A DNA stretch of 34,674 bases from a virus. The translations under genes were made by a program, and so were the position numbers. The first letter of the stretch is position 1, and each line of letters starts with the position of its first letter. The stretch is taken from the IMG/VR virus record IMGVR_UViG_3300045107_000287, positions 1 to 34,674 of that record. One strand, written 5' to 3'. Shown here one piece after another: positions 3,194 through 19,392 of this stretch. A model generated the notes under the pieces. The model did not search any database and had not been told where the DNA came from. It saw only the letters and a list, made by a program, of their open reading frames with translations.

Positions 3194-3384
3194 CACAACT
3201 GCTCCTCTCGATAGGGGGTTGTATGAACGCGCTGGTCGCCAGGTAAGCCAAGGCCAACAGCTCTCTGATTCGGCTCATCCACAGCAAGGGTGCGGACGAT
3301 GGCAGCCGCAAGGATGGCGGCGATTTCGCCAGCACGGGCGCTGGCGCTCATCTCCGTGGGAGATGCGAGTTCGAGGTTCTTCAT
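3193..3384 (-). CDS. Small hypothetical protein heading the recombinase operon
   Basis: A 63-aa protein, rich in Ala in its first half (SARAGEIAAILAAAIVRTLAV) and basic/polar at its end (TTPYREEQL). The ATG at 3384 has GGAG 5 nt upstream. The stop overlaps the DUF2924 start codon by 1 nt, the same coupling seen through the rest of the operon, which is why I accept so short a gene. I do not recognise a domain, though I recall similar short ORFs before DUF2924 genes. The gene contains the upstream element at 3223-3252, so sequence conservation here may reflect that element rather than the protein. Confidence 0.65.
   Translation of the reverse strand: MKNLELASPTEMSASARAGEIAAILAAAIVRTLAVDEPNQRAVGLGLPGDQRVHTTPYREEQL
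3223..3252 (-). promoter_or_regulatory. Shared bipartite upstream element, copy A (before DUF2924)
   Basis: On the minus strand it reads CTTGGCTT-N11-AGCGCGTTCAT and ends 29 nt before the DUF2924 start codon. The same 19 fixed bases with the same spacing occur at 19062-19091 and 19363-19392, each time before a minus-strand gene. TTGGCT and GTTCAT are 17 nt apart, as in a promoter with -35 and -10 boxes, though the -10 match is poor. A leader RNA or leader peptide is also possible. Copy A lies inside the small gene that heads the operon, so it would give DUF2924 and the recombinase a second, internal start. Confidence 0.6.
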
Positions 3385-3489
3385 GACGGCTCCGAGGAAT
3401 AGCAACCGTCAGAAATAGTGAACCTGATCCTTCGGACAGGATGGCAACGCAGGGTAATCGGCGCAGAAAATTGCGCGTTTACGAAACAG

Positions 3490-3518
3490 TTGACCGGCGC
3501 ACGTCTTGGGCTTATGAT
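3490..3518 (+). promoter_or_regulatory. Sigma70 promoter of the XRE-ImmA cassette
   Basis: TTGACC (3490-3495), 17-nt spacer, TATGAT (3513-3518): both hexamers match the consensus at five of six positions with ideal spacing. The predicted start of transcription, about 3525, falls on the first base of the operator-like motif, so the regulator probably shuts off its own promoter. Confidence 0.75.
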
Positions 3519-3524
3519 CCTGAA

Positions 3525-3542
3525 ATTAACCAATTACGCAAT
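3525..3542. promoter_or_regulatory. Operator-like motif O1 at the XRE transcription start
   Basis: ATTAACC-N6-GCAAT, an imperfect inverted repeat (ATTAAC on one strand, ATTGCG on the other). The same motif with identical spacing is at 4704-4721, before the second half of the cassette. It overlaps the predicted +1 of the XRE promoter and ends 12 nt before the XRE start codon. Most likely the binding site of the XRE protein; this is inferred from position and repetition. Confidence 0.55.
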
Positions 3543-3554
3543 TAGGAAAAGGCC

Positions 3555-3833
3555 ATGCCTTTCGGAGACTTCATTCGCAAGAAGCGCGAAGAGAAGCAGA
3601 TACAGATGAACGACTTCGCGCGTCAGCTTGGGATTTCGCCTGCCTACTGGTCACGCATCGAGCGCAACATGGAAAAGCCGCCCAAGGACGAGCTGATCCG
3701 CAAAGCGGCAGAGATTCTGGGCATCGATCCGGACGACGCCTTCGTTGAGGCCAGCCGTCTGCCGCCCGATATGCGCGAGGATGTGGCCAGCGTGGTGCGG
3801 ATGTACCGCCGGGAAGTCACGGAGAAAAAGTGA
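3555..3833 (+). CDS. XRE-family transcriptional regulator
   Basis: A 92-aa single-domain regulator. The cro/CI-type helix-turn-helix covers about residues 6-60 (FIRKKREEKQIQMNDFARQ, then ISPAYWSRIERN, then KAAEILGI). The tail (residues 65-92) carries no visible partner domain. It is followed without any gap by an ImmA/IrrE protease gene, the classic pairing in which the protease cleaves the repressor after a stress signal (as ImmR/ImmA in ICEBs1, or DdrO/IrrE in Deinococcus). The promoter and O1 directly upstream fit autorepression. It is the only repressor-like gene seen in this prophage, so it may hold the lysogenic switch, or it may control only the cassette behind it. Confidence 0.93.
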   Translation: MPFGDFIRKKREEKQIQMNDFARQLGISPAYWSRIERNMEKPPKDELIRKAAEILGIDPDDAFVEASRLPPDMREDVASVVRMYRREVTEKK

Positions 3834-4646
3834 ATGCCGGCTCTGACCCTCGACTACCGGCATTGCGACCGCAAGCGCCCCAAATTCCTCAAGCACGTTG
3901 AAATCGAAGCCATCGCCGCACAGGCCCGTCAGCAGCTGGTGGAAAGTGGTGTTGATGCCATTGCCTTCGACGCGTTGAGGCAGATCGACCGGTTGGAGAT
4001 CAACGGCATCGACTTCGCGCTCGAGGTCAGCACCGAATGCGAGGTGCATGATGAGGATGGCAAGCCCGTATTCGGGATCTGTGAGTACGACCCATGTGTC
4101 CCGGACACGGCGATGGTATGCGTGTCGCCGGTCAGCGAAAAACTCAACGAGCTGCTGGCACTCAGCACATTGGCCCACGAACTCGGACACGCGGTGTTCG
4201 ATGCACCAGGCTGGATCTTGGATGGCAGCAAGGGACCAGGACTGTTCGACGCCTTTGAACCAAGTGGGCAGCGCGCCTATCGCACCACCACACCGGACAG
4301 CGAGCACTTGGCGAAAGTGCCAACTGCCCCGTCAGCAGCACAGGCGACTGAAGCGCATTTTGCCGAGCTGCGCGCCAACGAGTTCATGGGGTCGCTGCTG
4401 GTACCGCGCCAACTGTTGAGCACAGCAGCAGAGGAGCTGGCTCCGCAATACAAGGTCAGCGTGCATCGTGGGCCTTCGCTCGATGCGGAGATCCCCGGCA
4501 CCAGTCTGCAACTGAGCGCGACATCCCCCGTCGATATGGAATTGCTGGAACGGGCACTGGCCATGCGGTTTGGCGTCAACCCGCGCTTTGTGCAGGTGCG
4601 CTTGCAGCGCTACGGCCTGACCCGACCGGGGGCTGCAGTGCGCTGA
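3834..4646 (+). CDS. ImmA/IrrE-family metallo-endopeptidase
   Basis: A 270-aa cytoplasmic zinc protease. The HELGH motif (His115, Glu116, His119) is the HEXXH metal-binding and catalytic signature. The probable third ligand is Glu178 in the phrase ELRANEFMGSLLVP, the ExxANxF block of the family. The start is the ATG directly after the XRE stop codon, with GGAG 9 nt upstream. Family members cleave a cognate XRE repressor, so the neighbour upstream is the likely substrate. The C-terminal 70 residues (after about 200) extend beyond the minimal domain and could sense the signal. A terminator follows at 4669-4693. Confidence 0.93.
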   Translation: MPALTLDYRHCDRKRPKFLKHVEIEAIAAQARQQLVESGVDAIAFDALRQIDRLEINGIDFALEVSTECEVHDEDGKPVFGICEYDPCVPDTAMVCVSPVSEKLNELLALSTLAHELGHAVFDAPGWILDGSKGPGLFDAFEPSGQRAYRTTTPDSEHLAKVPTAPSAAQATEAHFAELRANEFMGSLLVPRQLLSTAAEELAPQYKVSVHRGPSLDAEIPGTSLQLSATSPVDMELLERALAMRFGVNPRFVQVRLQRYGLTRPGAAVR

Positions 4647-4668
4647 ACAACGAACCGCAAAACTTTCG

Positions 4669-4693
4669 CGCCGACCTCGCGTCGGCGTTTTTT
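4669..4693 (+). terminator. Terminator after the ImmA/IrrE gene
   Basis: A 7-bp stem CGCCGAC/GTCGGCG with a 5-nt loop and six T residues, 23 nt after the protease stop codon. It should separate XRE-ImmA transcription from the two genes behind it, which then need their own promoter near O2 or read-through. Confidence 0.85.
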
Positions 4694-4703
4694 GAACCGA
4701 TCA

Positions 4704-4721
4704 ATTAACCTTTCGCGCAAT
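4704..4721. promoter_or_regulatory. Operator-like motif O2 before the 464-aa gene
   Basis: ATTAACC-N6-GCAAT, the same bases and spacing as O1 at 3525-3542 (14 identical bases over 19 when the flanking A and C are counted). It lies between the terminator and the ribosome site of the 464-aa gene. I find no convincing -35/-10 pair around it, so either the promoter is weak or needs an activator. The repeat suggests that the XRE protein also controls the two unknown genes. Confidence 0.55.
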
Positions 4722-4752
4722 CGCGCACATTGTTTCTCAAGGAGTGGCGTGT

Positions 4753-6147
4753 ATGGCAACAACCGAACTGAACGACATCCAATCCAGCAACGTGTCTGCG
4801 CTTGCCGGGACGGAACATGGCAAAACCCGGACTCGCGGCAAGGACAACGGCCCCAGCACCTTGCCACATCTGGAGCGTCTGGTTCACCTCACACGCAAAG
4901 TGCAGCGCCCGGTGCTGCTGCGGGTGCTACTGGAATCGACGCATGGTCAGGCACTCCCTGCCGTACAGGCGCTGACCGATGACGCCAAAGGCTCGCTGCC
5001 TATTTCATCCCGCAATGCGCTGTTCGCACTGGTTGCCGGGATGCAGCCGGAAGTGCAGGCGCGGCTCGAACGCGCCGCCGAGCGCATCACATTGCTGGTC
5101 GACGAGTATGGCGCGTTGGCAGTGACGGAACTGATGGATGCAAGCAGGCCCGATGATGCTGCCATTCTGGCGGCGCCGTCCGACAAATACAGCCGGGCGT
5201 TGTACCTGTATCTGGAGCAGGAGTGTTCGACGTCAGGCTCCGTGAAAAATCGCTTTGAGCACGCCGAACAACGCCAGCAGGTGCTGCGGCATTTCCAGAG
5301 CGAAAAATACTCGAGCCATTACCTGGGTCCCAAAGGCGCACAGCCCACGTTGGATGCTTATGCAGAAGAAAGCATGAAACAGCGTCTGGCGGAACTGTTT
5401 CCGCAGGTCAAGGCAGAGGACATCCTCGTAGAGCCGTTCGCCCACCGGGAAAGTGATGCCCCCGATGCGCCGGTGCTGCTGTACACGCTATCGGTCAAAT
5501 TCAACGGCAAGCACATTCATTACCCCAAGATCATCAATGGCGAGGACACCGATGTGGATGACTCGTCGACGGTCTATGTGCGCTATTCCTGGCACAGCAG
5601 CAAAGGCGAATTGTCGGTATTCAGTGATGATGAAACCGTGCGGCCCGAACTGGCCAAGGTCTTCCGCGACGTGGTGCTGGGCGGCGATGGCGACATTCAC
5701 ACCATGCCGATGCGCGAGTTCGACCTCATGGGTTTCTGTACGCCCGCCATCCTGGCCCGGTTCAAGAAAGACCGTATTGCAGGCATCGAATCCATCGATA
5801 TCAAGCACATTCTGATTGCCAACCCGGAAGTACGTCAGACCACGGTGAAAAACCGACTGATCGCCCGTCGCGTGGAGAACCCGTTGCTGATCAAGCGCGA
5901 CCGCTTTGAGGATCGCAATATTTACGAGGTGGCAGGACAGGTCTATCCGCTTGTCGACCTTACGAACTACGTCGTGAAGCAGGTCAAACTGACCTTCCGC
6001 ATCGGCCAAACCGCGCATCGCAAAGCGCACGATGTATCGGTGCAGATCACGGCGCCCAACGGGTTCAATGATGCCAAGCTGACCAGGGCCGACAGCGAGC
6101 TGGTGTTTGCCCAGCTCATGCAACTTGATTGCGCGCGCCAGTACTGA
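4753..6147 (+). CDS. Unknown 464-aa protein of the XRE-ImmA cassette
   Basis: I do not recognise this protein. The ATG at 4753 has AAGGAG 8 nt upstream; a GTG at 4744 lies inside that ribosome site and is unlikely. Residues about 35-180 are mainly helical and charged. Residues about 200-420 look like alternating beta strands and helices (VLLYTLSVKFNGKHIHYPKI, STVYVRYSWHSSKGELSVF, EVAGQVYPLVDLTNYVVKQ). No Walker, protease, nuclease or transmembrane signature is evident. The base composition is visibly less GC-rich than the flanking phage genes, which fits acquired cargo. It is followed after 7 nt by the 305-aa gene, so the two probably act together. Its place next to the integrase is where temperate phages often carry defence or fitness genes, but that is inference. 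Confidence 0.85.
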   Translation: MATTELNDIQSSNVSALAGTEHGKTRTRGKDNGPSTLPHLERLVHLTRKVQRPVLLRVLLESTHGQALPAVQALTDDAKGSLPISSRNALFALVAGMQPEVQARLERAAERITLLVDEYGALAVTELMDASRPDDAAILAAPSDKYSRALYLYLEQECSTSGSVKNRFEHAEQRQQVLRHFQSEKYSSHYLGPKGAQPTLDAYAEESMKQRLAELFPQVKAEDILVEPFAHRESDAPDAPVLLYTLSVKFNGKHIHYPKIINGEDTDVDDSSTVYVRYSWHSSKGELSVFSDDETVRPELAKVFRDVVLGGDGDIHTMPMREFDLMGFCTPAILARFKKDRIAGIESIDIKHILIANPEVRQTTVKNRLIARRVENPLLIKRDRFEDRNIYEVAGQVYPLVDLTNYVVKQVKLTFRIGQTAHRKAHDVSVQITAPNGFNDAKLTRADSELVFAQLMQLDCARQY

Positions 6148-6154
6148 AGTCGCC

Positions 6155-7072
6155 ATGCTGCACTCGGAATTTTTGCTGGTACTGGAACGTGCCCGCAGCC
6201 TCGAGGAACGGCTGCAGTCTGACGACTTGCGTGGTCACGCTGCTGCTTTCCTCGCTAGGCGATGGGTGATGGCCGATGGACACCTGACACATATCCTTGT
6301 GCCGGTGCTCGACAGTGAGCAGGAGGTCGAGGTTGATGTCGACGATGACCTGCAGACCTACAGCTACCAAAGCCCGGGTTGCCGTGGCCGGGTCGTCACG
6401 CGACCGTTGGCGGATATCGCGTTGTACGTGGTCAACATTGATGCGTGGATGGACGAGATTTGCGACCTGCTCGAAATCGAGCCTTCACAGCGGGCACGCA
6501 GTCGGGAGGTCATCGCAGATCACCTCTGGCATTTGGGCAATATCCGGGTGGGAAACACACATCGGCACGCGCCGGTCTATGTTGCCCGCCGTATGAATGC
6601 TGGCGATCAGGATTTGCGGCAAGCGCTTCTCAGCGCCAAGCGGCCCAGCCAGGGCATCGTGCTGACTGCACACGACCTGGATATCGAACTACCGAACAGT
6701 CACCAGACCTGTGGCATCGACCGGCTGATCGTGAATTCCGGCGATGGCCTTTCCTGTGACGCCGAGCTCCTCCATCGCTTGCTGAAGGGCGTCGCTGCCG
6801 ATGCAGACGATCCGGATGAGTATTTCGATGCGGATACCGGCGAGCTGAAGCTGGCCTGCGTTGCAGAGCCAAAGATTTTCAAGGGTAAGCAGAAGGAGGT
6901 CATTGCGCTGTTCTGGAAGGCGCGCCAGCAGCACAGCCTCAAATGGGAGGACGTCGTTGCACGAACCGGCTGCGGCAAAGATCCCGACAGCGTTTTTGGT
7001 CGCGGCTGGACGACCTGGCTTGTGCGCATCGAAGGTCAGCGCGGCCATTACCGGCTGCGCACACGTCAGTAA
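6155..7072 (+). CDS. Unknown 305-aa protein of the XRE-ImmA cassette
   Basis: I do not recognise this protein. The ATG at 6155 comes 7 nt after the upstream stop; an in-frame ATG at 6107 would overlap the neighbour by 41 nt and lacks a ribosome site. The N-terminal half is acidic (VEVDVDDDLQTY near residue 60). A helical segment near residues 95-150 carries HLWHLGNIRVGNTHRHAPVYVARR. The last 60 residues (KGKQKEVIALFWKARQQH, then TWLVRIEGQRGHYRLRT) look like a winged helix, which suggests nucleic-acid binding. Co-transcription with the 464-aa gene seems certain. A two-protein effector under XRE/ImmA control is a reasonable hypothesis. Confidence 0.85.
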   Translation: MLHSEFLLVLERARSLEERLQSDDLRGHAAAFLARRWVMADGHLTHILVPVLDSEQEVEVDVDDDLQTYSYQSPGCRGRVVTRPLADIALYVVNIDAWMDEICDLLEIEPSQRARSREVIADHLWHLGNIRVGNTHRHAPVYVARRMNAGDQDLRQALLSAKRPSQGIVLTAHDLDIELPNSHQTCGIDRLIVNSGDGLSCDAELLHRLLKGVAADADDPDEYFDADTGELKLACVAEPKIFKGKQKEVIALFWKARQQHSLKWEDVVARTGCGKDPDSVFGRGWTTWLVRIEGQRGHYRLRTRQ

Positions 7073-7073
7073 A

Positions 7074-7095
7074 TTTCCGGCGCTTTTTCCGGAAA
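7074..7095. repeat. Inverted repeat after the 305-aa gene
   Basis: Perfect 7-bp inverted repeat TTTCCGG/CCGGAAA with an 8-nt loop, 2 nt after the stop codon. No T-tract follows, so it is at best a weak or Rho-assisted stop. ATCCGG is repeated twice just downstream (7099-7104 and 7110-7115). The rest of the gap to 7168 holds a weak promoter-like TTTAAT (7145-7150) before the early operon. Confidence 0.5.
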
Positions 7096-7167
7096 GGCAT
7101 CCGGACACGATCCGGCGTCAGATTCGAAGAATGAGCAGTGCCCGTTTAATTCAAAGGAGCACTGCAA

Positions 7168-7434
7168 ATGGCAAATACCCACCCAACTCGTCGATATGGC
7201 CACGCATCCCGCGTGCCATCGACGCCTACTGCACACCCGTGCATTGCACTGACTGAAGAGGAACTGGCTAGCCGCTGGGGACTTTCTGTCAAAACCCTGC
7301 GCCGCTGGCGGCAGGAACAGCTCGGCCCGGTCTTCTGCAAGCTCGGCTCGCGCGTCACCTATCTGATCTCGGAAGTCGAGGCCTTCGAGCGGCGCGTGGC
7401 GCGCCATTCGACCTTCGCTCGGGCGTACCAGTGA
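7168..7434 (+). CDS. Excisionase/AlpA-like helix-turn-helix protein
   Basis: An 88-aa protein with a MerR/excisionase-type winged helix at residues about 28-75: LTEEELASRWGLSVKTLRRWRQEQLGP followed by a wing ending SEVEAFERR (quoted to locate the fold). AAGGAG stands 7 nt upstream of the ATG. Such small proteins bind DNA and act as excisionases or early-operon regulators. This one opens the rightward early operon and is followed after 11 nt by the next gene, so an early regulatory role is most likely. An Xis role for a serine recombinase would be atypical. Confidence 0.85.
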   Translation: MANTHPTRRYGHASRVPSTPTAHPCIALTEEELASRWGLSVKTLRRWRQEQLGPVFCKLGSRVTYLISEVEAFERRVARHSTFARAYQ

Positions 7435-7445
7435 GGAGGACGGCC

Positions 7446-7922
7446 ATGAGCGATATGACCATCTTCCCCGCCGACATCGCCGCGATGTCCGTCAGCCAGC
7501 TGGCTGCCTTGCCGCCCGAGGTCAAGCACGAGGTCGACAAGAACCTCGATGCGGCCATCGACTGGCTCAAGAAGGCGCGCACCAAGTTCGATGCGGCGCT
7601 GGATCAGTGCTACGGCGAGCGGGCCCGTGCCGCGCTGCGTGAATCCGGCCGCGATTTCGGCACCGCCCACATCAGCGACGGCCCGCTGCACCTGAAGTTC
7701 GAGCTGCCCAAGAAGGTCAGCTGGAACCAGCAGCAACTGGCCGAAATCGCCGAGCGCATCGTGGCTTCGGGCGAGAAGGTCGAGGGCTACCTCGACGTCA
7801 AGCTGTCCGTCTCCGAATCCCGCTACACGAACTGGCCTCCGGCGCTCCAGCAGCAGTTCGCCGCCGCTCGCACCGTGGATTCCGGCAAGCCGTCCTTCAC
7901 CCTTTCCCTTGATTCGGAGTAA
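7446..7922 (+). CDS. Hypothetical early phage protein
   Basis: A 158-aa soluble protein with no domain that I recognise. The ATG at 7446 has GAGGAGG upstream. Residues about 25-60 are helical and charged (KNLDAAIDWLKKARTKFDAAL), and the C-terminal half has beta-type segments (PLHLKFELPKKVSW, GYLDVKLSVSESRY). Its stop overlaps the BRO-N start codon (TAATG), so the two are translated together. Proteins of this kind occur next to BRO and annealing-ATPase genes in related phages. No function can be given. Confidence 0.8.
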   Translation: MSDMTIFPADIAAMSVSQLAALPPEVKHEVDKNLDAAIDWLKKARTKFDAALDQCYGERARAALRESGRDFGTAHISDGPLHLKFELPKKVSWNQQQLAEIAERIVASGEKVEGYLDVKLSVSESRYTNWPPALQQQFAAARTVDSGKPSFTLSLDSE

Positions 7923-8689
7923 TGACCATGAGTGCAATCATTCCCTTCCAGTTCGAAGCACACGCTGTGCGCGTGCAGGTCGACGACGCGGGACTGCCGT
8001 GGTTCAACGCCAGCGATATCTGTTCCGTTTTGGAGTTCGGCAATCCGCGCCAGGCGATTGAATCGCATGTCGATCCGGATGACGTCCAGAAACTGGACGT
8101 CATCGACAACCTCGGCCGCACCCAGCGCGCCAACCACGTCAACGAATCAGGCCTCTACGCCCTGATCCTCGGCAGCACCAAGGACGCTGCCAAACGTTTC
8201 AAGCGCTGGGTGACCAGCGAGGTGCTGCCCACGATCCGCAAGACCGGCAGTTACACCGCTCCGGGTGCGCTGGCTTCCTTGCCCGCACCGACCCACGACC
8301 GCGTGAGCGCGATCCTGCTGATCGGCGAGGCAGTCGCCAAGGTGCCGGGCGTCAAGACCGGCATCGCGATGGCGGCGACGCTGACCTGCATCCACGAGAA
8401 CACGGGCCTCGCCGTCGAAACCCTGCGCCGCGCCTTGCCCGCTGCCAACGAACCGATCTGTTCGCTCAACGCCACCCAGCTCGGCAAGCTGCTCAACCGC
8501 TCGGCCAAGGCCACGAACCAGTTGCTGGCAGCGGCTGGCTTGCAGTTTCGCAACGACCGCGACGAATGGGAACTGACCGAGGCCGGTGAAGCCTGGGCCG
8601 AGGCCATGCCGTACTCGCGCAACGGCCACAGCGGCTACCAGATCCTCTGGAATCCCGCCGTCGCCGAAGAGTTGAAGGAGGTGGCGTGA
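7922..8689 (+). CDS. BRO-N domain protein, putative antirepressor
   Basis: A 255-aa protein. The BRO-N domain covers about residues 8-115: VRVQVDDAGLPWFNASDICSV, then NESGLYALILGSTKDAAKRFK, then WVTSEVLPTIRKTGSY. BRO-N proteins bind DNA and in temperate phages often act as antirepressors. The C-terminal half (about 130-255) has a helical region and LNATQLGKLLNRSAKATNQLL, resembling the C-terminal helix-turn-helix domains of phage antirepressors. If XRE is the phage repressor, this protein is a natural candidate to counter it. The start could also be the ATG at 7928, which has a better distance to GGAG. Confidence 0.9.
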   Translation: MTMSAIIPFQFEAHAVRVQVDDAGLPWFNASDICSVLEFGNPRQAIESHVDPDDVQKLDVIDNLGRTQRANHVNESGLYALILGSTKDAAKRFKRWVTSEVLPTIRKTGSYTAPGALASLPAPTHDRVSAILLIGEAVAKVPGVKTGIAMAATLTCIHENTGLAVETLRRALPAANEPICSLNATQLGKLLNRSAKATNQLLAAAGLQFRNDRDEWELTEAGEAWAEAMPYSRNGHSGYQILWNPAVAEELKEVA

Positions 8690-9534: not shown

Positions 9535-9539
9535 TCGCC

Positions 9540-10172
9540 ATGTCTTCCAACTACTTTGATTTTCAGGATGCCGATCCTCAACAGTCCGGCTTCGACCTGA
9601 TCCCCAAGGGCACCCTCGTCCCGGTGCGCATGACCCTCAAGCCGGGCGGTTATGACGATCCGGCGCAGGGCTGGACGGGCGGCTACGCCACCGAGTCTTT
9701 CGAGACCGGCTCCATCTACCTCGCCGCCGAGTTCGTCGTCACCGCCGGTGAGCACGCCAAACGCAAGATGTGGAGCAACATCGGCCTGCACTCGAAGAAA
9801 GGCCCGACCTGGGGCCAGATGGGGCGCAGCTTCATCCGCGCCGCACTCAACAGCGCGCGCAACGTCCATCCGCAGGACAACAGCCCGCAGGCCGCCGCCG
9901 CGCGCCGCATCCAGGGCTTCCACGAACTGGATGGCCTGGAGTTCCTGGCTCGCGTGGACATCGAGAAAGACGGCAAGGGCCAGGACCGCAACGTGGTCAA
10001 GCTCGCGGTCGAACCCGACCACCCCGAGTACGCCAAGCTCATGGGCGTGCCGCCCAAGGCCAAGACCGGCGGTGGCACCTCGGGCGCTCCGGCGCAGGCA
10101 GCGGCACCAACGTATCAGGCACCGGCACCCCAGCGCGCTCCCGTGACGGGCAAACCGTCGTGGGCGCAGTGA
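9540..10172 (+). CDS. Probable ssDNA-binding partner of the Sak4-like ATPase
   Basis: A 210-aa protein. Residues about 1-160 look like an OB-type beta protein (LIPKGTLVPVRMTLKPGGY, SIYLAAEFVVTAGEHAKRKMW, LEFLARVDIEKD) and resemble DUF669-like phage proteins. The tail (about 170-210) is Pro/Ala/Gly-rich and disordered, ending PSWAQ, the plan of SSB proteins with a flexible tail. It starts 6 nt after the ATPase gene. Annealing ATPase plus SSB-like protein is a well-known phage recombination pair, so I infer that role. Direct homology to SSB cannot be claimed from inspection. Confidence 0.75.
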   Translation: MSSNYFDFQDADPQQSGFDLIPKGTLVPVRMTLKPGGYDDPAQGWTGGYATESFETGSIYLAAEFVVTAGEHAKRKMWSNIGLHSKKGPTWGQMGRSFIRAALNSARNVHPQDNSPQAAAARRIQGFHELDGLEFLARVDIEKDGKGQDRNVVKLAVEPDHPEYAKLMGVPPKAKTGGGTSGAPAQAAAPTYQAPAPQRAPVTGKPSWAQ

Positions 10173-10183
10173 GGGAGGTTGTC

Positions 10184-11911: not shown

Positions 11912-14193
11912 TCGATTTCAACGACGTGCCTCGATCTCCTGTGCAGGAGAACCGTGACGCCGAGCGCGAGGATGTGCGAGCGGAACTTCTCGCCAGGCTG
12001 GAGACGGTGTTGTTCACCCTGTTCCCGGCAGGCAAGAAGCGCCGCGGCAAGTTCCTGATCGGCGATGTGCTGGGCAGCCCCGGCGACAGCCTTGAGGTGG
12101 TGCTGAATGGTGAGAAAGCCGGACTGTGGACGGATCGTGCCACTGACGATGGCGGCGACATCTTCGATCTGATTGCCGAACATTTGGCGCTATCCGTCCA
12201 CACCGACTTCAATCGCGTGCTGGATGCCGCTGCCGATTTGCTTGGGCGTGCGCGCTCTGCGCCGGTGCCAAAGAGCAAGAAGCAATCAGCACCCGTCGAT
12301 GAACTCGGCCCCGCCACCGCCAAGTGGGATTACCTCGATGCGGCGGGTCATCTCATCGCCGTCGTCTACCGCTATGACCCACCGGGGCAGAAGAAGCAGT
12401 TCCGGCCCTGGGATGCGAAGCGGCGCAAGATGGCACCTCCCGATCCGCGCCCGCTGTACAACCAGCCGGGCATGGTCAGTGCCGCGCAGGTGGTGCTGGT
12501 CGAGGGCGAGAAATGCGCGCAGGCATTGATCGACGCGGGCATCACCGCCACCACCGCGATGCACGGTGCGAACGCCCCCATCGACAAGACTGACTGGTCG
12601 CCGCTGAAGGACAAGGCCGTGCTGATCTGGCCCGACCGCGACAAGCCGGGTTGGGAGTACGCAGCACAGGCGGCACAGGCTGTGCTGGCAGCAGGCGCAA
12701 AGTCCTGCCACATCCTGTATCCGCCCGAAGAGGCGCCGGAAGGTTGGGATGCGGCGGACGCCATTGCTGAGGGCTTCGACGTCGCCACCTTCCTCACCCA
12801 CGGCCCGCGCCTGCAGATGCACGATGTGGCCGATGTCGACGAGCCAGTGGTCGGCAGCGACGAATCCGTCTGGGGCACCGAGGATGCGCTGGCGCTGGCC
12901 TTCACCCGGCGCTACCACCGCGACTGGCGCTACGTCGCGGCATGGGGCCGCTGGCTGGTGTGGGACGGGCAACGCTGGCGCACCGAGGACACGCTGGCCG
13001 CCACCGATCTGATCCGCAGTGTCTGCCGCCAGACCGCCGTGCGCGCTGACAACCCCAAGGTCGCCGCCAAATTGGCCAGCGCCAGTACGGTTGGCGGCGT
13101 CGAGCGACTGGCGCGTGCCGACCGCAGGCATGCGGCCACCACCGACGAGTGGGATGCCGATCCGTGGCTGCTCAACACCCCCGGTGGCGTGGTCGATCTC
13201 AAGACCGGACGCAAGCGTCCAAATGAACGCTCTGACCGGATGACCAAGATCACCACGGCCACCCCGGACGGCGAATGTCCGCAGTGGGTGGCATTCCTGT
13301 CCGACATCACGGGCGGCGATATTGATCTGCAGTCCTACATGCAACGGATGGTCGGCTATTGCCTGACCGGCGTGACCAGCGCCCACGCGCTGTTCTTCCT
13401 GTACGGCACCGGTGCCAATGGCAAGAGCGTATTCGCCAACGTCATTAGCACCATCCTCGGCGACTACGCCGCCACCGCCTCGATGGACACCTTCGTCGAA
13501 ACCCGTGGAGACCGCCATCCGACCGACCTCGCGGGTCTGCGCGGCGCACGCTTTGTGACGGCCATCGAAACCGAGCAAGGGCGGCGTTTGAACGAATCCA
13601 AGGTCAAGGCCATCACCGGCGGCGACAAGATTTCCGCGCGCTTCATGCACAAGGATTTCTTCGAGTACACGCCGCAGTTCAAACCGGTGATCGTGGGCAA
13701 CCACAAGCCCGCCATCCGCAACATCGACGAGGCAATGAAACGGCGGATGCACCTGATTCCCTTCACGGTGACGATTCCGCCCGAGCGGCGCGATCCGCGT
13801 TTGACGGAAAAGCTGCTGGCCGAACGGGACGGGATTCTGGCGTGGGCCGTGGCCGGATGCCTTGCCTGGCAGCGCGAGGGATTGAAGCCGCCCGCCAGCG
13901 TGGTGTCGGCAACCGAGGAGTATTTCGAGTCCGAGGACGCGCTTGGCCGCTGGATCGACGAGCGCTGTGTGCGGGAGGTCAACGCCAAGTCACTGACCGC
14001 AGAGCTGTTCACGGATTGGAAGCAGTGGGCCGAGGCATCGGGTGAGTTCATCGGCTCGCAGCGACGTTTCTCCGATCTGCTGATCACCCGCGGACTCGAG
14101 AAGTGGCGCAACAGCATGGGCGTGCGCGGATTCCGGGGCATTGGCCTCAAGCATCCGCCGATGCCTGCCTATACGCCCTATGCGGACGACTGA
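11908..14193 (+). CDS. Phage primase-helicase (TOPRIM plus D5/P4-type helicase)
   Basis: A 761-aa replication protein. Residues about 10-110 form an N-terminal primase-associated region. A TOPRIM-type primase core lies at about 190-260 (VVLVEGEKCAQAL, then LIWPDRDKPG) and should make primers. The C-terminal half is a superfamily-3 helicase of the D5/P4 type: Walker A GTGANGKS at about 500-507, followed by FVTAIETEQGRRLNESKVK and VIVGNHKPAIRN. The order primase then helicase is that of P4 alpha-like proteins. It probably starts and drives theta replication of the phage. The start overlaps the preceding gene (ATGA). The inverted repeat 55 nt downstream may belong to the replication region. Confidence 0.93.
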   Translation: MIDFNDVPRSPVQENRDAEREDVRAELLARLETVLFTLFPAGKKRRGKFLIGDVLGSPGDSLEVVLNGEKAGLWTDRATDDGGDIFDLIAEHLALSVHTDFNRVLDAAADLLGRARSAPVPKSKKQSAPVDELGPATAKWDYLDAAGHLIAVVYRYDPPGQKKQFRPWDAKRRKMAPPDPRPLYNQPGMVSAAQVVLVEGEKCAQALIDAGITATTAMHGANAPIDKTDWSPLKDKAVLIWPDRDKPGWEYAAQAAQAVLAAGAKSCHILYPPEEAPEGWDAADAIAEGFDVATFLTHGPRLQMHDVADVDEPVVGSDESVWGTEDALALAFTRRYHRDWRYVAAWGRWLVWDGQRWRTEDTLAATDLIRSVCRQTAVRADNPKVAAKLASASTVGGVERLARADRRHAATTDEWDADPWLLNTPGGVVDLKTGRKRPNERSDRMTKITTATPDGECPQWVAFLSDITGGDIDLQSYMQRMVGYCLTGVTSAHALFFLYGTGANGKSVFANVISTILGDYAATASMDTFVETRGDRHPTDLAGLRGARFVTAIETEQGRRLNESKVKAITGGDKISARFMHKDFFEYTPQFKPVIVGNHKPAIRNIDEAMKRRMHLIPFTVTIPPERRDPRLTEKLLAERDGILAWAVAGCLAWQREGLKPPASVVSATEEYFESEDALGRWIDERCVREVNAKSLTAELFTDWKQWAEASGEFIGSQRRFSDLLITRGLEKWRNSMGVRGFRGIGLKHPPMPAYTPYADD

Positions 14194-14247
14194 CTTCTAT
14201 GAAAACCATGCCGCCTGACACAACCGACACATTTGCACTAAATCCCG

Positions 14248-14273
14248 CTACACGCGTGTGCGCGCACGTGTAG
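14248..14273. repeat. GC-rich inverted repeat after the primase-helicase
   Basis: CTACACG (14248-14254) and CGTGTAG (14267-14273) form a perfect 7-bp inverted repeat around a 12-nt alternating purine-pyrimidine stretch. No T-tract follows. It lies in the 139-nt gap between the primase-helicase and RuvC-like genes, the only sizeable gap in the early operon. It could be an attenuator or part of a replication origin. Confidence 0.45.
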
Positions 14274-14332
14274 AGAAGTTATGTGCGACTGCGCCAGTTG
14301 CGTCAGATCGGCAAGAAACCGGGACTGACTTT

Positions 14333-14806
14333 ATGACCACGACCATCCTCGCCCTCGATCTGGCCACCACCACCGGCTGGGCGCTGCGCAGCAGCGACGG
14401 CCTCATCACCAGCGGCTCGGAGAGCTTCCGGCCGCAACGTTTCGAGGGCGGCGGCATGCGCTTTTTGCGCTTCAAACGCTGGCTCACCGAGATCAAGCAA
14501 TCCTGCGGCGGTATCGACTGCCTGCACTTCGAGGAAGTACGCCGCCACGTCTCGACCGATGCGGCCCACGCCTACGGCGGCTTCCTCGCCACGCTCACGG
14601 CGTGGTGTGAACACCATCAGATCCCGTACCAGGGCGTGCCGGTGGGCACGATCAAGAAACACGCCACCGGCAAAGGAAACGCGGGCAAGGACGAGGTGAT
14701 CGCGGCGATCCGCGCGCGCGGCCATGCGCCCGGCGACGACAACGAAGCCGACGCGCTGGCCCTGCTGCACTGGGCCATCGCGCAGCACGCACGTGAGGAG
14801 GTGTGA
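14333..14806 (+). CDS. RuvC-like Holliday-junction endonuclease
   Basis: A 157-aa RNase H-fold nuclease. The acidic residues of the RuvC active site are recognisable: LALDLATTTGW near the N-terminus (Asp8), FEEVRRH around residue 65, and GDDNEADALALLHW near residue 140. RuvC-type enzymes resolve four-way junctions left by replication and recombination before packaging. The ATG at 14333 was chosen because the protein begins with the first catalytic strand; the reading upstream of it is not conserved-looking. The ribosome site is poor. The next gene starts 1 nt after its stop codon. Confidence 0.9.
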   Translation: MTTTILALDLATTTGWALRSSDGLITSGSESFRPQRFEGGGMRFLRFKRWLTEIKQSCGGIDCLHFEEVRRHVSTDAAHAYGGFLATLTAWCEHHQIPYQGVPVGTIKKHATGKGNAGKDEVIAAIRARGHAPGDDNEADALALLHWAIAQHAREEV

Positions 14807-14807
14807 G

Positions 14808-15017
14808 ATGAAGATCCCAACACCCCAGTACCGCTGCCCGCTCGGTCGACTGCAACCTGACGTCCAGGATCTGGACGCCATCAAACAACGCGGCTGGCGC
14901 GACCAGCGCATCCTGGTCGTCTCGCCGGACGACGAACGTCTGGACTGGATGGAACGCGAACTGGTGCGCCAGATCGGCGAACGTCTCTACGGAACAGGAG
15001 GGCGACGCCATGGCTGA
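14808..15017 (+). CDS. Small hypothetical phage protein
   Basis: A 69-aa protein with no recognised domain. GAGGAGG lies 4 nt before the ATG region, a strong ribosome site. The middle part (RGWRDQRILVVSPDDERLDWMERELVRQ, located at about residues 28-55) predicts one strand and one helix. It overlaps the following gene by 8 nt. The position between a RuvC-like and a DUF6362-like gene suggests an early function. Confidence 0.75.
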   Translation: MKIPTPQYRCPLGRLQPDVQDLDAIKQRGWRDQRILVVSPDDERLDWMERELVRQIGERLYGTGGRRHG

Positions 15018-15423
15018 CCGTCGCAACGCTTGGACTATTGAGGAAGTGGCCGCACGCTTTGAGGAAGCGGCTAACACCGGACGGCGTCTGCCTCCGGTAC
15101 GTGTGCAAGGCTATTTCAACACGTGGCCTGCCATCGTGCGCAAGGAGTGGGAGTCATTTGCCGCAGATGAGAAGGTGTACCGGCCGTTCCCGCCAAGCCC
15201 GGACGCCATCGACCGGATGCTGGAAACGATGCAGTGGGTGCAATGCCTGGAAGTCGATCAGCGACATCTGGTCTGGATGCGGGCGAAACGTTATGGCTGG
15301 CGGGACATCACGATTCGATTCGCCTGCGACCGCACGACGGCGTGGCGGCGCTGGCAACGGGCGCTGGAGACTGTCACGACCATGCTCAACACAACCAACG
15401 GGCAACAAGCTTCAACTTCCTGA
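15010..15423 (+). CDS. DUF6362-like HTH protein, end of early operon
   Basis: A 137-aa protein. It starts WTIEEVAARFEEAANTGRRLP and ends with a helix-turn-helix-like region, WMRAKRYGWRDITIRFACDRTTAWRRWQ (residues about 88-115), in which a recognition helix rich in Arg and Trp is clear. It resembles the phage family I recall as DUF6362. AGGAGG stands 9 nt upstream of the ATG. The HTH and its position as the last early gene before the late/methylase region suggest a regulator, possibly an activator of late transcription. That is inference. Confidence 0.8.
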   Translation: MADRRNAWTIEEVAARFEEAANTGRRLPPVRVQGYFNTWPAIVRKEWESFAADEKVYRPFPPSPDAIDRMLETMQWVQCLEVDQRHLVWMRAKRYGWRDITIRFACDRTTAWRRWQRALETVTTMLNTTNGQQASTS

Positions 15424-15595
15424 GCAACGTAGGGTAATGCGTAACGTGTTTGTCCTTGTATTGACGCATTTGTCTTTTTTGGGAGCAGCCGGACATGCAA
15501 CAAAACACCCGAGAGTGGCGTAGTATTTGAGCTATCTTCTGGGCAGCGGTGACGATAAAGCGAGCGGCCCGAGGCAAAACGGGTCCTTCCCGGCC

Positions 15596-15633
15596 AAAGC
15601 GCCATGCGGGGGGCGCGAGCGCGGCGCTTTTTT
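15596..15633 (+). terminator. Terminator of the early operon
   Basis: Stem AAAGCGCC/GGCGCTTT with a 19-nt GC-rich loop, ending in six T residues. It follows the last early gene by 172 nt and is the first clear stop signal downstream of the replication genes. Confidence 0.65.
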
Positions 15634-15652
15634 AGCGTCAGGGCGCGAACAA

Positions 15653-15707
15653 GGTTACCAGTCGGCCAGGTTACCGGCTGCGGTTACCACCCCCAGGCGC
15701 GGTGACC
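15653..15707. repeat. Four GGTNACC repeats
   Basis: GGTTACC at 15653-15659, 15669-15675 and 15682-15688, and GGTGACC at 15701-15707. Each is a 7-bp palindrome around a free middle base. Spacing start to start is 16, 13 and 19 nt. The cluster lies between two hairpins directly upstream of the methyltransferase genes and looks like a protein-binding array. The ligand is unknown. Confidence 0.6.
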
Positions 15708-15734
15708 ACCCCACCAGAATCGTCATTCAACCCA

Positions 15735-15764
15735 CCCGCCCGGCGGCAACGCTCGGCGGGTTTT
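15735..15764 (+). terminator. Hairpin before the first methyltransferase
   Basis: Stem CCCGCC/GGCGGG, loop of 14 nt, then TTTT and a further T-rich stretch. It stops 19 nt before the likely start codon at 15783. A similar CCCGCC/GGCGGG hairpin stands before the capsid gene at 26301-26318. Confidence 0.5.
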
Positions 15765-15782
15765 GCTTTTGGGATTCCCACG

Positions 15783-17207
15783 TTGAACACGCTCAACGTC
15801 GAGTACCGCAAGGTCGAGGCGCTGATTCCCTACGCCCGCAATCCGCGCACGCATTCAGATGCCCAGATCGCCAAGATCGCGGCCAGCATCGTCGAGTTCG
15901 GCTGGACGAACCCGATCCTGGTCGATGGCGCGAGCGGCATCATCGCCGGGCACGGGCGGTTGGCGGCGGCGCGCAAGCTGGGCTTGGCCGAGGTGCCGGT
16001 GATCGAACTGGCGCACCTGTCCGCCGCACAAAAGCGCGCCTACGTCATCGCCGACAACCGGCTGGCGCTGGATGCGGGCTGGGATGAGGAAATGCTGGCG
16101 CTGGAGTTGGCCGAGCTCACCGACGCGGGCTATGACCTGGCGCTCACCGGCTTCGAGGACGCCGAGCTGCGAGACCTGCTGGCAAGCGCCGAAGTCTCGG
16201 ACACGGGCGAACAACAGGACGACGCGGCGGACGACGCCGACGACGTGCCGCAAGCGCCGGCCACGCCGGTGTCCCGCGTGGGCGACGTCTGGGCCATCGG
16301 CGCGCATCGCCTGATCTGCGGCGATGCCACCGACCCAGCCGTGGTCGCCACGCTGATGCAGGGTGAGGTCGCACAGCTTTGCTTCACCTCGCCGCCCTAC
16401 GGCAACCAGCGCGACTACACCACGGGCGGCATTGCCGATTGGGACGGCCTGATGCGTGGCGTGTTCGCGCATCTGCCGATGGCGGGCGACGGTCAGGTGC
16501 TGGTGAACCTTGGCCTCATCCACCGCGACAACGAGGTCGTCCCGTACTGGGATGGCTGGCTCGCGTGGATGCGCACGCAAGGCTGGCGGCGCTTTGCGTG
16601 GTACGTCTGGGATCAGGGGCCGGGGATGCCCGGCGACTGGCAGGGCCGACTGGCCCCGAGCTTCGAGTTCGTCTTTCACTTCAACCGGGAGAGCCGCAAG
16701 CCCAACAAGATCGTGCCCTGCAAGCACGCCGGCCAGGAAACCCACCTGCGCGCCGATGGGTCGTCCACCGCGATGCGCGGCAAGGATGGCGAGGTGGGCG
16801 GCTGGACGCACAAGGGGCGGCCGACGCAAGACACCCGCATCCCCGACTCGGTGATCCGGGTGATGCGCCACAAGGGCAAGATCGGCCAGGGGATCGACCA
16901 CCCGGCCGTGTTCCCGGTGGCGCTGCCGCAGTTCATCATCGAGGCCTACACCGATGCGGGCGACATCGTGTTCGAGCCATTCGGTGGCAGTGGCACGACG
17001 ATGCTGGCGGCTGAGCGTGCAGGCCGCATCTGCCGCACCGTCGAGATCGCGCCCGAGTACGTGGACGTGGCCATCAAACGCTTCCAGCAGAACCACCCCG
17101 GCGTTCCGATCACCCTGATCGAGAGTGAAGGCATCGCGTCGGGTCAGTCCTTCGAGCAGGTCGCTGCCGAGCGCGCCACCAACCCGGATGCCGAGGTGGT
17201 GGCATGA
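15783..17207 (+). CDS. ParB-domain DNA methyltransferase (first of tandem pair)
   Basis: A 474-aa fusion. The ParB-like N-terminal domain covers about residues 5-110 (LIPYARNPRTHSDAQIAKIA, IIAGHGRLAAA, VIADNRLALDAGW). The methyltransferase domain has SPPY (203-206, motif IV) before FGGSGTT (400-406, motif I), the beta-class order of N4-cytosine or N6-adenine enzymes. It should methylate phage DNA using S-adenosylmethionine; the ParB part may bind or scan DNA. The start is uncertain: I prefer the TTG at 15783, where similarity to its paralogue begins, over the GTG at 15702, which would place a hairpin inside the gene. It overlaps the next gene by 4 nt. No restriction enzyme is adjacent. Confidence 0.92.
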   Translation: MNTLNVEYRKVEALIPYARNPRTHSDAQIAKIAASIVEFGWTNPILVDGASGIIAGHGRLAAARKLGLAEVPVIELAHLSAAQKRAYVIADNRLALDAGWDEEMLALELAELTDAGYDLALTGFEDAELRDLLASAEVSDTGEQQDDAADDADDVPQAPATPVSRVGDVWAIGAHRLICGDATDPAVVATLMQGEVAQLCFTSPPYGNQRDYTTGGIADWDGLMRGVFAHLPMAGDGQVLVNLGLIHRDNEVVPYWDGWLAWMRTQGWRRFAWYVWDQGPGMPGDWQGRLAPSFEFVFHFNRESRKPNKIVPCKHAGQETHLRADGSSTAMRGKDGEVGGWTHKGRPTQDTRIPDSVIRVMRHKGKIGQGIDHPAVFPVALPQFIIEAYTDAGDIVFEPFGGSGTTMLAAERAGRICRTVEIAPEYVDVAIKRFQQNHPGVPITLIESEGIASGQSFEQVAAERATNPDAEVVA

Positions 17208-18463
17208 ACTGGCTGGCCGACAAGATCGAGCAGTGGCCGACGGCCAAGTTACTGCCCTACGCCCGCAACGCCCGCACCCACTCCGAGGAGCAGGTGGCGC
17301 AGATTGCGGCTTCCATCGCCGAGTTCGGCTTTACCAATCCGATCCTGGCAGGCAGCGACGGCGTGATCGTCGCCGGACACGGGCGGCTGGCCGCCGCCCA
17401 GAAGCTGGGGCTGGAACGGGTACCGGTGGTCGTGCTCGATCACCTCACACCCACCCAGCGCCGGGCGCTGGTGATCGCGGACAACCGCATCGCCGAGAAC
17501 GCGGGTTGGGACGAGACGCTCTTGCGCATCGAGTTGCAAGACTTGCAGGCCGACGGATTCGATCTCGACATCACCGGCTTCGATGCCGACGCGCTGGCCG
17601 AACTGATAGCGGGCGACGAGCCGGACAACGAGGGCCAGACCGATGAGGACGCGGTACCGGAGGTTGGCGAGACACCCATCTCGCGTCCTGGCGACGTCTG
17701 GATCATGGGCCAGCATCGGCTGCTGTGCGGCGACGCGACCGTGGCCGACAGCTACGAGCGGTTGATGCAGGGCACGGTGGCGGACATGGTCTTCACCGAT
17801 CCGCCGTACAACGTCAACTACGGGAGCAGCGCGAAAGACAAGATGCGCGGCAAGGATCGCGCGATCCTGAACGACAACCTGGGCGAGGGCTTCTACGATT
17901 TCCTGCTGGCGGCCTTGACACCCACCATCGCCCACTGCCGGGGTGCGATCTACGTGGCGATGTCCTCCAGCGAACTGGACGTGCTGCAGGCTGCCTTCCG
18001 CGCGGTGGGCGGCCACTGGTCCACCTTCATCATCTGGGCCAAGAACACCTTCACCCTGGGGCGCGCGGACTACCAGCGCCAGTATGAGCCGATCCTGTAC
18101 GGATGGCCCGAGGGGGCGACACGCCACTGGTGTGGCGATCGCGACCAGGGTGACGTGTGGCAGATCAAGAAGCCGCAGAAGAACGACCTGCATCCGACGA
18201 TGAAGCCGGTGGAACTCGTGGAGCGAGCGATCCGCAATTCGAGCCGCCCGGGCAATGTGGTGCTCGATCCCTTCGGCGGTTCCGGCACGACGCTGATCGC
18301 AGCGGAAAAATCAGGTCGCGCGGCGCGGCTGATCGAACTCGATCCGAAGTACGTCGATGTGATCGTGCGCCGGTGGGAAGAGTTCACCGGGAAGCAGGCC
18401 ATCCGTGAGGCGGATGGCGTGGCCTTCGATCAGGCGGATGCATCCTGCCCGGCGATTCTGTAG
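17204..18463 (+). CDS. ParB-domain DNA methyltransferase (second of tandem pair)
   Basis: A 419-aa fusion with the same plan as the gene before it: ParB-like domain at about 8-110 (LLPYARNARTHSEEQVAQIA, VIVAGHGRLAAAQKLGL, LVIADNRIAENAGW) and a beta-class methyltransferase with DPPY (199-202) and DPFGGSGTT (from Asp355). DPPY favours N6-adenine as product. The ParB halves of the two proteins are clearly alike and the catalytic halves much less so, which points to an old duplication with divergence in target site. Its last 34 nt overlap the 3' end of the leftward DUF3489 gene. It may protect the phage from host restriction or regulate gene expression. Confidence 0.93.
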   Translation: MNWLADKIEQWPTAKLLPYARNARTHSEEQVAQIAASIAEFGFTNPILAGSDGVIVAGHGRLAAAQKLGLERVPVVVLDHLTPTQRRALVIADNRIAENAGWDETLLRIELQDLQADGFDLDITGFDADALAELIAGDEPDNEGQTDEDAVPEVGETPISRPGDVWIMGQHRLLCGDATVADSYERLMQGTVADMVFTDPPYNVNYGSSAKDKMRGKDRAILNDNLGEGFYDFLLAALTPTIAHCRGAIYVAMSSSELDVLQAAFRAVGGHWSTFIIWAKNTFTLGRADYQRQYEPILYGWPEGATRHWCGDRDQGDVWQIKKPQKNDLHPTMKPVELVERAIRNSSRPGNVVLDPFGGSGTTLIAAEKSGRAARLIELDPKYVDVIVRRWEEFTGKQAIREADGVAFDQADASCPAIL

Positions 18464-19026
18464 ACGCGCTCCTCGCCTGGGGCCTTGGTCGACACGATGG
18501 CCAGCCCCAGCTTCTTCTTGAAGGCCCCGGCGAAGGTGCCGCGCACCGTGTGCGCTTGCCAGCCGGTGGCTGCGCAGATCTGGGCGATGGTCGCGCCCTC
18601 GGGGCGTTGCAGCATCCGGATCACTTCGGCCTGCTTGCTGTTGTGTCGGGTGCGCGGCTTGGTCTGCGCCGGTGCTTGTGTCCACGTCGCTTCGGCGGTG
18701 GCCACCGCTTGCTCCAGTTCGGGATCGCTCACGGCTGCATGCGCGCCTTCGGCGTTGGCGATGATCCGGTCGAGATTGACTTCGAATGGGCCGACGCGCT
18801 TCTTCACGCCGGGACGCGGCAGCCCCAAGGCATCGTAGCCCTCGGCGGCGACGAACCAGTCGGCACCCTTGGGGGTGATCAGGGCGCGGTTGAACAACCC
18901 GTCGAGCACCTTCTTGCGCGCGCCGCCTTTGATGTGGTCGGGGAACCAGTCGATCTTGCCGCCGCTGGTGTGGATGGCCTTGGCCAGGATGGCGTGCTGG
19001 GCCGGGGTCAGGTTGGTGGTGGTCAT
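18430..19026 (-). CDS. DUF3489 domain protein (winged-helix-like)
   Basis: A 198-aa protein. The N-terminal part (about residues 5-75: LTPAQHAILAKAIHTSGGKID, GLFNRALITPKGADWFV) resembles a small HTH unit. The C-terminal DUF3489 part (about 130-195: KQAEVIRMLQRPEGATIAQI, CAATGWQAHTVRGTFAGA) looks like a winged helix. A DNA-binding role is likely, but the function of the family is unknown. AAGGAG stands 8 nt upstream of the ATG. The gene runs against the late transcription direction and its 3' end overlaps the methyltransferase by 34 nt, so the two transcripts are complementary there. The shared upstream element, copy B, ends 35 nt before its start codon. Confidence 0.9.
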   Translation of the reverse strand: MTTTNLTPAQHAILAKAIHTSGGKIDWFPDHIKGGARKKVLDGLFNRALITPKGADWFVAAEGYDALGLPRPGVKKRVGPFEVNLDRIIANAEGAHAAVSDPELEQAVATAEATWTQAPAQTKPRTRHNSKQAEVIRMLQRPEGATIAQICAATGWQAHTVRGTFAGAFKKKLGLAIVSTKAPGEERVYRIAGQDASA

Positions 19027-19061
19027 GGGCTGCTCCTTCGGGGGTGGTGGATGGTGATGGG

Positions 19062-19091
19062 ATGAACGCGCTCTCTGGGGCTGAAGCCAAG
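19062..19091 (-). promoter_or_regulatory. Shared bipartite upstream element, copy B (before DUF3489)
   Basis: On the minus strand CTTGGCTT-N11-AGCGCGTTCAT, ending 35 nt before the DUF3489 start. Only this copy adds a perfect 9-bp hairpin: AAGCCAAGC (19084-19092) pairs with GCTTGGCTT (19100-19108) across a 7-nt loop, which places half of the element in a stem. The other copies are at 3223-3252 and 19363-19392. Confidence 0.6.
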
Positions 19092-19121
19092 CGCTTTGTG
19101 CTTGGCTTGGCCGCTTTCCGG

Positions 19122-19328
19122 TCAGTCCTTGGGCGTTTCCGCGTCCGTGGCCTTCGGGCTCGATGCGCCACATTCGACGCCCGCCTTGAAGGCCACTTCC
19201 AACGCGTCGCGGATGCACCACACCGCCGCGTCGTGGAAGTCCAGGCTGTCGGCGTGGCGGGTTTGCAGGGTGTCGATGCCCAGATGCTTCTGGGCGATCT
19301 GGGTGAGGAGGGTGTCGATTGGGCTCAT
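19122..19328 (-). CDS. DUF6900-like small protein
   Basis: A 68-aa protein. The conserved-looking core is LTQIAQKHLGIDTLQTRHADSLDFHDAAVWCIRDALEVAF (located at residues about 8-48), which matches what I recall as the DUF6900 family of short proteins. The last 18 residues are polar and probably disordered. It reads leftward like DUF3489 and has its own copy of the shared upstream element (copy C) ending 34 nt before the ATG, with AAAGGAA as ribosome site. The function is unknown. With DUF3489 it forms a small leftward island between the methyltransferases and the terminase. Confidence 0.8.
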   Translation of the reverse strand: MSPIDTLLTQIAQKHLGIDTLQTRHADSLDFHDAAVWCIRDALEVAFKAGVECGASSPKATDAETPKD

Positions 19329-19362
19329 GGCATGTTCCTTTCGGGTTGGTCGGCGTGACGTG

Positions 19363-19392
19363 ATGAACGCGCTGTTTCCGATGGAAGCCAAG
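19363..19392 (-). promoter_or_regulatory. Shared bipartite upstream element, copy C (before DUF6900-like gene)
   Basis: On the minus strand CTTGGCTT-N11-AGCGCGTTCAT. Copies A and C also share GCCGA(A)ATC exactly 14 nt further upstream (19407-19415 here, 3267-3274 in copy A), so their conserved block is longer than in copy B. TTGGCT and GTTCAT are 17 nt apart. If this is a promoter, the transcript would start about 25-30 nt before the start codon. Confidence 0.6.

Follow-up and report, generated by a model that had tools for sequence, protein, structure and literature searches.

Promoters that are specific to a phage are a known general kind. In lambda, one promoter type, the CII-activated promoters pI, pRE and paQ, couples the integrase with other genes, and the BisDC-controlled promoters of the integrative and conjugative element (ICE) ICEclc illustrate that a factor encoded by a mobile element can serve several promoters of that element. 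Here we describe a bipartite sequence element, CTTGGCTT-N11-AGCGCGTTCAT, in the virus record IMGVR_UViG_3300045107_000287, whose 34,674 bases were analyzed as a whole and are called the window below. The element is probably a promoter of a type peculiar to temperate phages resembling AcaML1 and to integrative modules with the same recombination genes, as judged from sequence comparisons.

The closest isolate that we found is AcaML1 (JX507079), a temperate phage of Acidithiobacillus caldus whose primase is 72.5% identical to that of the window and which PMC3826726 lists as an A. caldus prophage. Its genome contains four exact copies of the element, located before the DUF2924/recombinase operon and before three units of small genes, and the order of the core genes is largely common to AcaML1 and the window. 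The window shares the core of an AcaML1-like clade, namely serine integrase, primase, methylases, terminase, portal and capsid. Unlike in the window, the AcaML1 homologue of the putative small terminase (16258-16794) lies before the methylases, DUF3489 follows DUF6900 without an element copy of its own, and no match was found to the HTH_3, ImmA-like and DUF6362 genes of the window. The AcaML1 record annotates tail-sheath and baseplate genes and leaves the element unannotated, and the AcaML1 passages of PMC5567305 and PMC3826726 do not mention it. At 21967-22209 of JX507079.1, on the minus strand, an unannotated DUF6900-like gene of 80 amino acids follows an element copy at a distance of 34 nt; it is overlapped by a plus-strand ORF, gp33 (22018-22479), that is annotated as small terminase.

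In the window, the element occurs exactly three times, always on the minus strand and without a mismatch, and allowing up to three mismatches added no further site. Copy A (3223-3252) consists of a -35-side box at 3252-3245 and a -10-side hexamer, GTTCAT, at 3228-3223, and precedes the DUF2924 gene (2669-3193, minus strand). Copy B (19062-19091) precedes the DUF3489 gene (18430-19026, minus strand), and copy C (19363-19392), which is divergent from the terminase genes, precedes the DUF6900 gene (19122-19328, minus strand). The copies end 29, 35 and 34 nt before the respective start codons, and Pfam assigns the three products to their families with 166, 110 and 79 bits. From base composition, about 1e-7 exact copies are expected per window; dinucleotide shuffles of the window contained 0.01 matches on average, and none of 100 shuffles reached three. 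The sequence-only reading, which had reported these three exact copies with their 11-nt spacing, their distances and the families behind them, is borne out on all of these points, as is its view that a common upstream element ties the integration operon (copy A) to an island 16 kb away (copies B and C). A block GCCGA(A)ATC that it had described as shared further upstream did not generalize, being present 12-16 nt upstream in just 4 of 335 unique exact sites, the copies of the window included.

The linkage between element and gene families recurs in other genomes, which the sequence-only reading had set as the check that could refute it. Among the best 80 of 590 viral relatives anchored on DUF2924, and with the scanned stretch extended by 60 nt, the element was present within 3 mismatches in all 80 loci and exact in 65, with the reversed control reaching 7 mismatches at best; among the best 80 of 581 anchored on DUF3489 it was present within one mismatch in 79, with the control at 6 mismatches at best. 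A simple score placed a start of an open reading frame (ORF) within 90 nt downstream in 442 of 448 sites (up to 2 mismatches), 411 of them at 28-41 nt. The products of the downstream ORFs, 403 distinct sequences, formed 46 clusters, a few of which are spurious readings, and searches with ten representatives against Pfam provided the names: DUF2924 (79), DUF3489 (73) and DUF6900 (58) are followed by an unnamed family (54), another of 24 and smaller ones. To place the sites within phage genomes, we mapped 19 phage records, comprising 17 of 20 records chosen by the pattern (some read incompletely), AcaML1 and the window. They hold 96 elements, 77 opposite to the direction of the terminase and 19 along it, which are situated before the integration operon and in an island between the second methylase and the terminase; some records have them in a second island as well, or before a gene at the right end. 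DUF3489 is present in all 19 records. DUF2924 was found in 14, each time with the element and in either gene orientation; the other five records are incomplete or were incompletely read, and absence is not implied for them.

Scans of genome contigs and of viral contigs with the exact pattern returned at least 119 stretches each and, among the matches listed, many stretches hold 2-7 copies; the element-bearing records include Burkholderiales, Rhodocyclaceae, Lysobacterales, Pseudomonas, Halotalea, Thiomonas and Nitrospira. The 20 viral records selected for holding the element carry 2-9 copies each (up to 2 mismatches). In 15 records anchored on the primase, which were selected from 80 loci by record length and blind to the element and which include at least two near-identical pairs (G023/G026 and G034/G035), the element was present in all 15 with 2-5 copies each. 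The reversed-pattern control gave no match in either set. A blastn search with the consensus over 50,697 phage records, which was not exhaustive, yielded 29 records, of which three AcaML1 records stand out (E 4e-5) and the rest have E values of 3 or more. A single 54-base element query found no match in E. coli genomes, and plasmids gave partial matches in 91 records, none spanning 80% of the query. The element also occurs outside a recognizable phage context: gammaproteobacterium HdN1 has one element, behind which lie DUF2924, a serine recombinase and a relative of phrog_14161, and the other window genes tested were not found in the 40 kb read there. Since the HdN1 module stands alone, the element can travel with the integration module only. 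Of the prophages and ICEs in which the sequence-only reading had proposed to search for the element, the ICEs are not the setting observed, which is the AcaML1-like phage clade with related integrative modules. The HdN1 module (L538-L539) adjoins ORFs that by eye resemble methyltransferase, helicase-like and DUF262-like proteins and give the region the look of a restriction-modification or defence island.

A profile of 327 unique exact sites, obtained from 380 exact sites after removal of duplicates and of sites near contig ends and split by gene family, reads GCTTGGCTTC-n6-GAACAGCGCGTTCAT with A-rich DNA upstream; the 35 nt in front of the element contain more A+T than the DNA further out. 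Spacing is nearly invariant, as 459 of 464 matches (up to 3 mismatches, spacings of 8-14 allowed) have N11, and an excess at N10 and N12 that appears at 4-5 mismatches is tentatively read as shifted alignments. When the -35 side was left free, AGCGCGTTCAT was found 269 times in 254 protein-anchored loci, in 267 cases with CTTGGCTT (up to one mismatch) exactly 11 nt upstream. Because the profile had been gathered with the exact pattern, these loci were rescanned with the hexamer left free, which resulted in 357 sites: 263 with GTTCAT, 62 with GTTACT, six each with GTCAAT and CTTCAT, five with GTGAAT and the remainder with rarer forms. In the promoter that we propose, GCTTGGCTTC would serve on the -35 side and either AGCGCGTTCAT or AGCGCGTTACT on the -10 side, with a fixed 17 nt between the two boxes. 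The promoter-like geometry with an unusual -10 region that the sequence-only reading had pointed out is supported.

This geometry is shared with sigma70 promoters, which likewise possess two boxes, a spacer near 17 nt and a T at -7 (356 of the 357 sites). A start-like context of pyrimidine, purine and pyrimidine (Y-R-Y) also fits at the expected place, though it is not confined to it, and TTGGCT matches four of the six bases of TTGACA. An ordinary weak housekeeping promoter that was copied along with each accessory gene and needs no dedicated factor would account for these features. Reading by host RNA polymerase alone would also agree with HdN1, where the element stands intact and no window-like early phage genes lie in its vicinity. 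We nevertheless regard such a promoter as unlikely. Of the 357 sites, 350 have T at position -11 and none has A, with no drift towards TATAAT, and the boxes of 8 and 11 nt are more rigid than those of sigma70 promoters. All 19 bases are exact even before DUF2924 proteins that are merely 36-43% identical to that of the window. Furthermore, in 12 whole element-bearing genomes, the coordinates of 62 of 68 matches (up to 2 mismatches) place them on stretches that also hold other copies or DUF2924/DUF3489 genes, although the nearest other copy is in some cases 25-34 kb away. The remaining six are isolated and look like chance, namely an exact match in G038 and, with 1-2 mismatches, one in G043 (~2.41 Mb), three in G046 and one in G047; the reversed pattern gave one match in these genomes, in G046. 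To our knowledge, the consensus sequences of sigma28, sigma32, sigma54 and the extracytoplasmic function sigma factors do not seem to fit the element either.

Downstream of the -10-side box, the sites behave as a start region might. Of the 234 sites that do not precede DUF2924, 97% have a pyrimidine at profile position 35, 86% have a purine at position 36, where T does not occur, and 94% have a pyrimidine at position 37. The sites of the GTTACT class also keep Y-R-Y. Transcription would start about 7 nt downstream of the -10-side box, and the resulting leader would have a median length of about 28 nt (335 sites) and its own Shine-Dalgarno sequence; a Shine-Dalgarno-like 4-mer is located between the predicted +1 and the start codon in 313 of 335 sites. 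For copies B and C the predicted starts are 19055 and 19356 (minus strand), in both cases an A within C-A-C. For copy A, the position 7 nt past the hexamer (profile position 36) is 3216 (minus strand), a poor predicted start since the base is C.

The rigidity of the boxes would also suit an operator, that is, a site for a repressor, an activator or another protein that lies near the promoter core and is distinct from it. In the commonest form of the element a partial dyad, GAAC-N5-GTTC, overlaps the hexamer, and an inverted copy of the -35-side box stands upstream of the DUF3489-type sites. The dyad is missing from copies A and B and from six DUF2924-type sites inspected, the inverted copy is strong in the DUF3489 family only, and no sigma-70-like promoter was found beside copies B and C that such an operator could serve, which makes an operator still less probable than the housekeeping promoter. 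The inverted box itself (for instance at 19062-19118 with copy B) reaches a mean match of 6.05 of 10 at its best offset compared to 2.91 over offsets in 66 sites; as a general activator site it was rejected, being strong solely before DUF3489.

Two further explanations, both raised by the sequence-only reading, place the function in the transcript. A structured leader RNA acting within the mRNA would agree with the position of the element, mostly 28-41 nt before start codons, and a stretch that begins 25 nt upstream and extends to the start codon is slightly more stable than its shuffled versions, with a mean z of -0.78 and 13 of 60 sites under -2, an excess that perhaps comes from the inverted repeats of DUF3489-type sites. 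For the element and the leader themselves, the mean z values of the same number of sites (60) are -0.08 and +0.5. Rfam at gathering score over the whole window reported solely a tRNA elsewhere, and two stretches searched at E up to 5 gave just two matches, far below gathering score. The consensus fold of 30 sites, drawn from 89 diverse ones, has three invariant pairs and no covariation. A leader RNA is hence very improbable. A conserved leader peptide, for which the common 'LA...SAFI' residues had been put forward, is the least credible of the explanations and can practically be dismissed. Frames 0 and 1 of the element are usually open (322 and 321 of 335 sites), and copy A lies near the 3' end of a small ORF (3193-3384, minus strand) whose TGA stop overlaps the DUF2924 start and whose relatives occur in 7 of the 19 mapped phage records (tblastn), including gp5 as its counterpart in AcaML1. 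However, the spacing to the gene falls in all three frames (156, 90 and 89 of 335), the element contains stops as often as column-shuffled controls do in every frame, and the common change from GTTCAT to GTTACT would alter residues. The shared peptide seems to follow simply from the bases being identical. Taken as a whole, the interpretation offered by the sequence-only reading is partly supported, and the special factor and joint regulation that it had suggested are plausible.

Several observations weigh against the promoter that we propose or narrow it. Over 335 sites, Y-R-Y is present in 65% at +1, yet also in 55% at -6 and 53% at +4, and in DUF2924-type sites, including copy A, the predicted +1 tends to be C. 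A sigma-70 consensus scan detected nothing at the three copies; the scan could not report the element because it demands an A at hexamer position 2. The same scan found TTGACC-17-TATGAT at 3490-3518, ahead of the rightward repressor gene. The query alignments of both 80-locus tests derive from proteins that are encoded behind the element, and in genomes drawn blind to it (one shared class for both families, from which nothing is claimed for Alphaproteobacteria) the linkage is looser. Here, 5 of 11 DUF2924 loci carry the element within 3 mismatches, two more at 4 mismatches, and four lack it, one of these at a contig edge; for DUF3489 it is 6 of 10 loci within 3 mismatches, and two of the four loci without it score below the Pfam cut-off. 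Among all loci found with hidden Markov models, which were scanned over the whole fetched locus (up to ~3.4 kb) and thus beyond the bases just upstream, 22 of 32 DUF2924 loci are within 3 mismatches, three at 4-5 and seven without the element, 21 of the 32 coming from the 12 genomes picked for the element; for DUF3489, 12 of 16 loci are within 3 mismatches, six of the 16 coming from G036. The DUF2924 region of the Wolbachia phage WO holds no element. Finally, HdN1 carries the element without DUF3489, which was not found in its whole genome, and without a window-like early phage gene in the 40 kb mentioned above.

A copy stands before the DUF2924/serine-recombinase operon and before each of many small accessory genes, so that a promoter at the element would place them in one regulon that is separate from the lytic genes, which run mostly in the opposite direction. 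This resembles the CII-activated promoters of lambda in type, as these also couple the integrase with genes lying mostly against the lytic direction. The two systems differ in that TTGC-N6-TTGC, which surrounds the -35 region of CII promoters, is by inspection not present in the three copies or in the profile, in that the element has more copies per genome, and in that no CII-like gene was identified. Since the -10-side box is far from TATAAT and a housekeeping promoter would not require boxes as rigid as these two, the promoter would probably work only with an extra factor encoded by the phage or module itself; the likeness to ICEclc is one of idea alone.

DUF2924 and DUF3489 are no more than candidate readers of the element. 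Alignments of the predicted C-terminal domain of DUF2924 reach Z 6.5-6.7 for the DNA-bound MPND and for the C-terminal part of CcrM, domains that we take to be RAMA domains; Pfam RAMA matches DUF2924 with E 0.009, below the cut-off, and the first-ranking match of the DUF2924 model is a helical N-terminal one (Z 7.1). DUF3489 is predicted to form two winged helices, for which the C-terminal domain of RuvB is the best match (Z 10.1) and NiaR/BirA-type domains reach Z ~8. These fold matches are middling, with all Foldseek E-values above 0.001. In the 12 element-bearing genomes, DUF2924 was found in 11 and DUF3489 in 9. DUF3489 was rejected as the sole factor given its absence from three of the 12, one of which (G038) has a single isolated match that is probably chance. 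DUF2924 as the factor was likewise not retained, given the seven of 32 DUF2924 loci without an element within 5 mismatches (one at a contig edge), nor was DUF6362, which BLAST did not find in AcaML1. That a factor of the mobile element, perhaps the RAMA-like DUF2924 or the double winged-helix DUF3489, lets the RNA polymerase of the hosts read a promoter which the hosts themselves do not use is a tentative idea that we consider possible, though doubtful. Such a factor would operate in hosts from Burkholderiales, Lysobacterales, Acidithiobacillus and Nitrospira, would couple integration with accessory genes and would regulate its own promoter. If it exists, it would represent a portable promoter specificity working across bacterial phyla.

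Literature searches with DUF2924, DUF3489, AcaML1 and element strings found no description of the element and no paper joining DUF3489 with DUF2924; among the matches listed for the element strings, none concerned phages and none contained AGCGCGTTCAT. In the literature searched, we found no account of the motif, of its rigid boxes and un-sigma70-like -10 side, or of its occurrence ahead of an integration module that stands alone. As a single sequence tag, the element flags the apparent non-lytic regulon of a phage clade that is large and for the most part uncultured, together with the small unannotated genes of this clade, and it predicts which genes would be expressed together in a lysogen.

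A look-alike, CTTGGCGTA-n-AGCGC(G/A/C)CGCTC, recurs in one conserved stretch of primase-anchored loci (L465, L471, L505, L507 and others) and is probably coding sequence separate from the element.

PHROG and Pfam searches identify the window as the genome of a temperate tailed phage, the record of which (34.7 kb) stops inside the tail genes. Next to DUF2924, the leftward integration genes comprise an integrase of the DNA invertase family (1281-2672, minus strand; phrog_95 with E 1.2e-107, and phrog_125), presumably a serine recombinase, and a second recombinase-family ORF (431-1333, minus strand; phrog_14161). The rightward genes encode a repressor-like helix-turn-helix (HTH) protein, an IrrE/ImmA-like peptidase, an Ant antirepressor, recombination proteins, primase, RuvC, DUF6362 and two ParB-methyltransferase fusions; they are followed by the leftward DUF3489 and DUF6900 genes and then by terminase, portal, capsid and tail genes. 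The two fusion genes are neighbours (15702-18463), and relatives of them stand beside the island with the element in all 19 mapped phages. The tRNA reported by Rfam is located at 52-124. Divergent from the integration operon, at 3555-4646, the short HTH repressor-like gene is followed by the IrrE/ImmA-like peptidase gene, a pair that in our view resembles the ImmR/ImmA switch.

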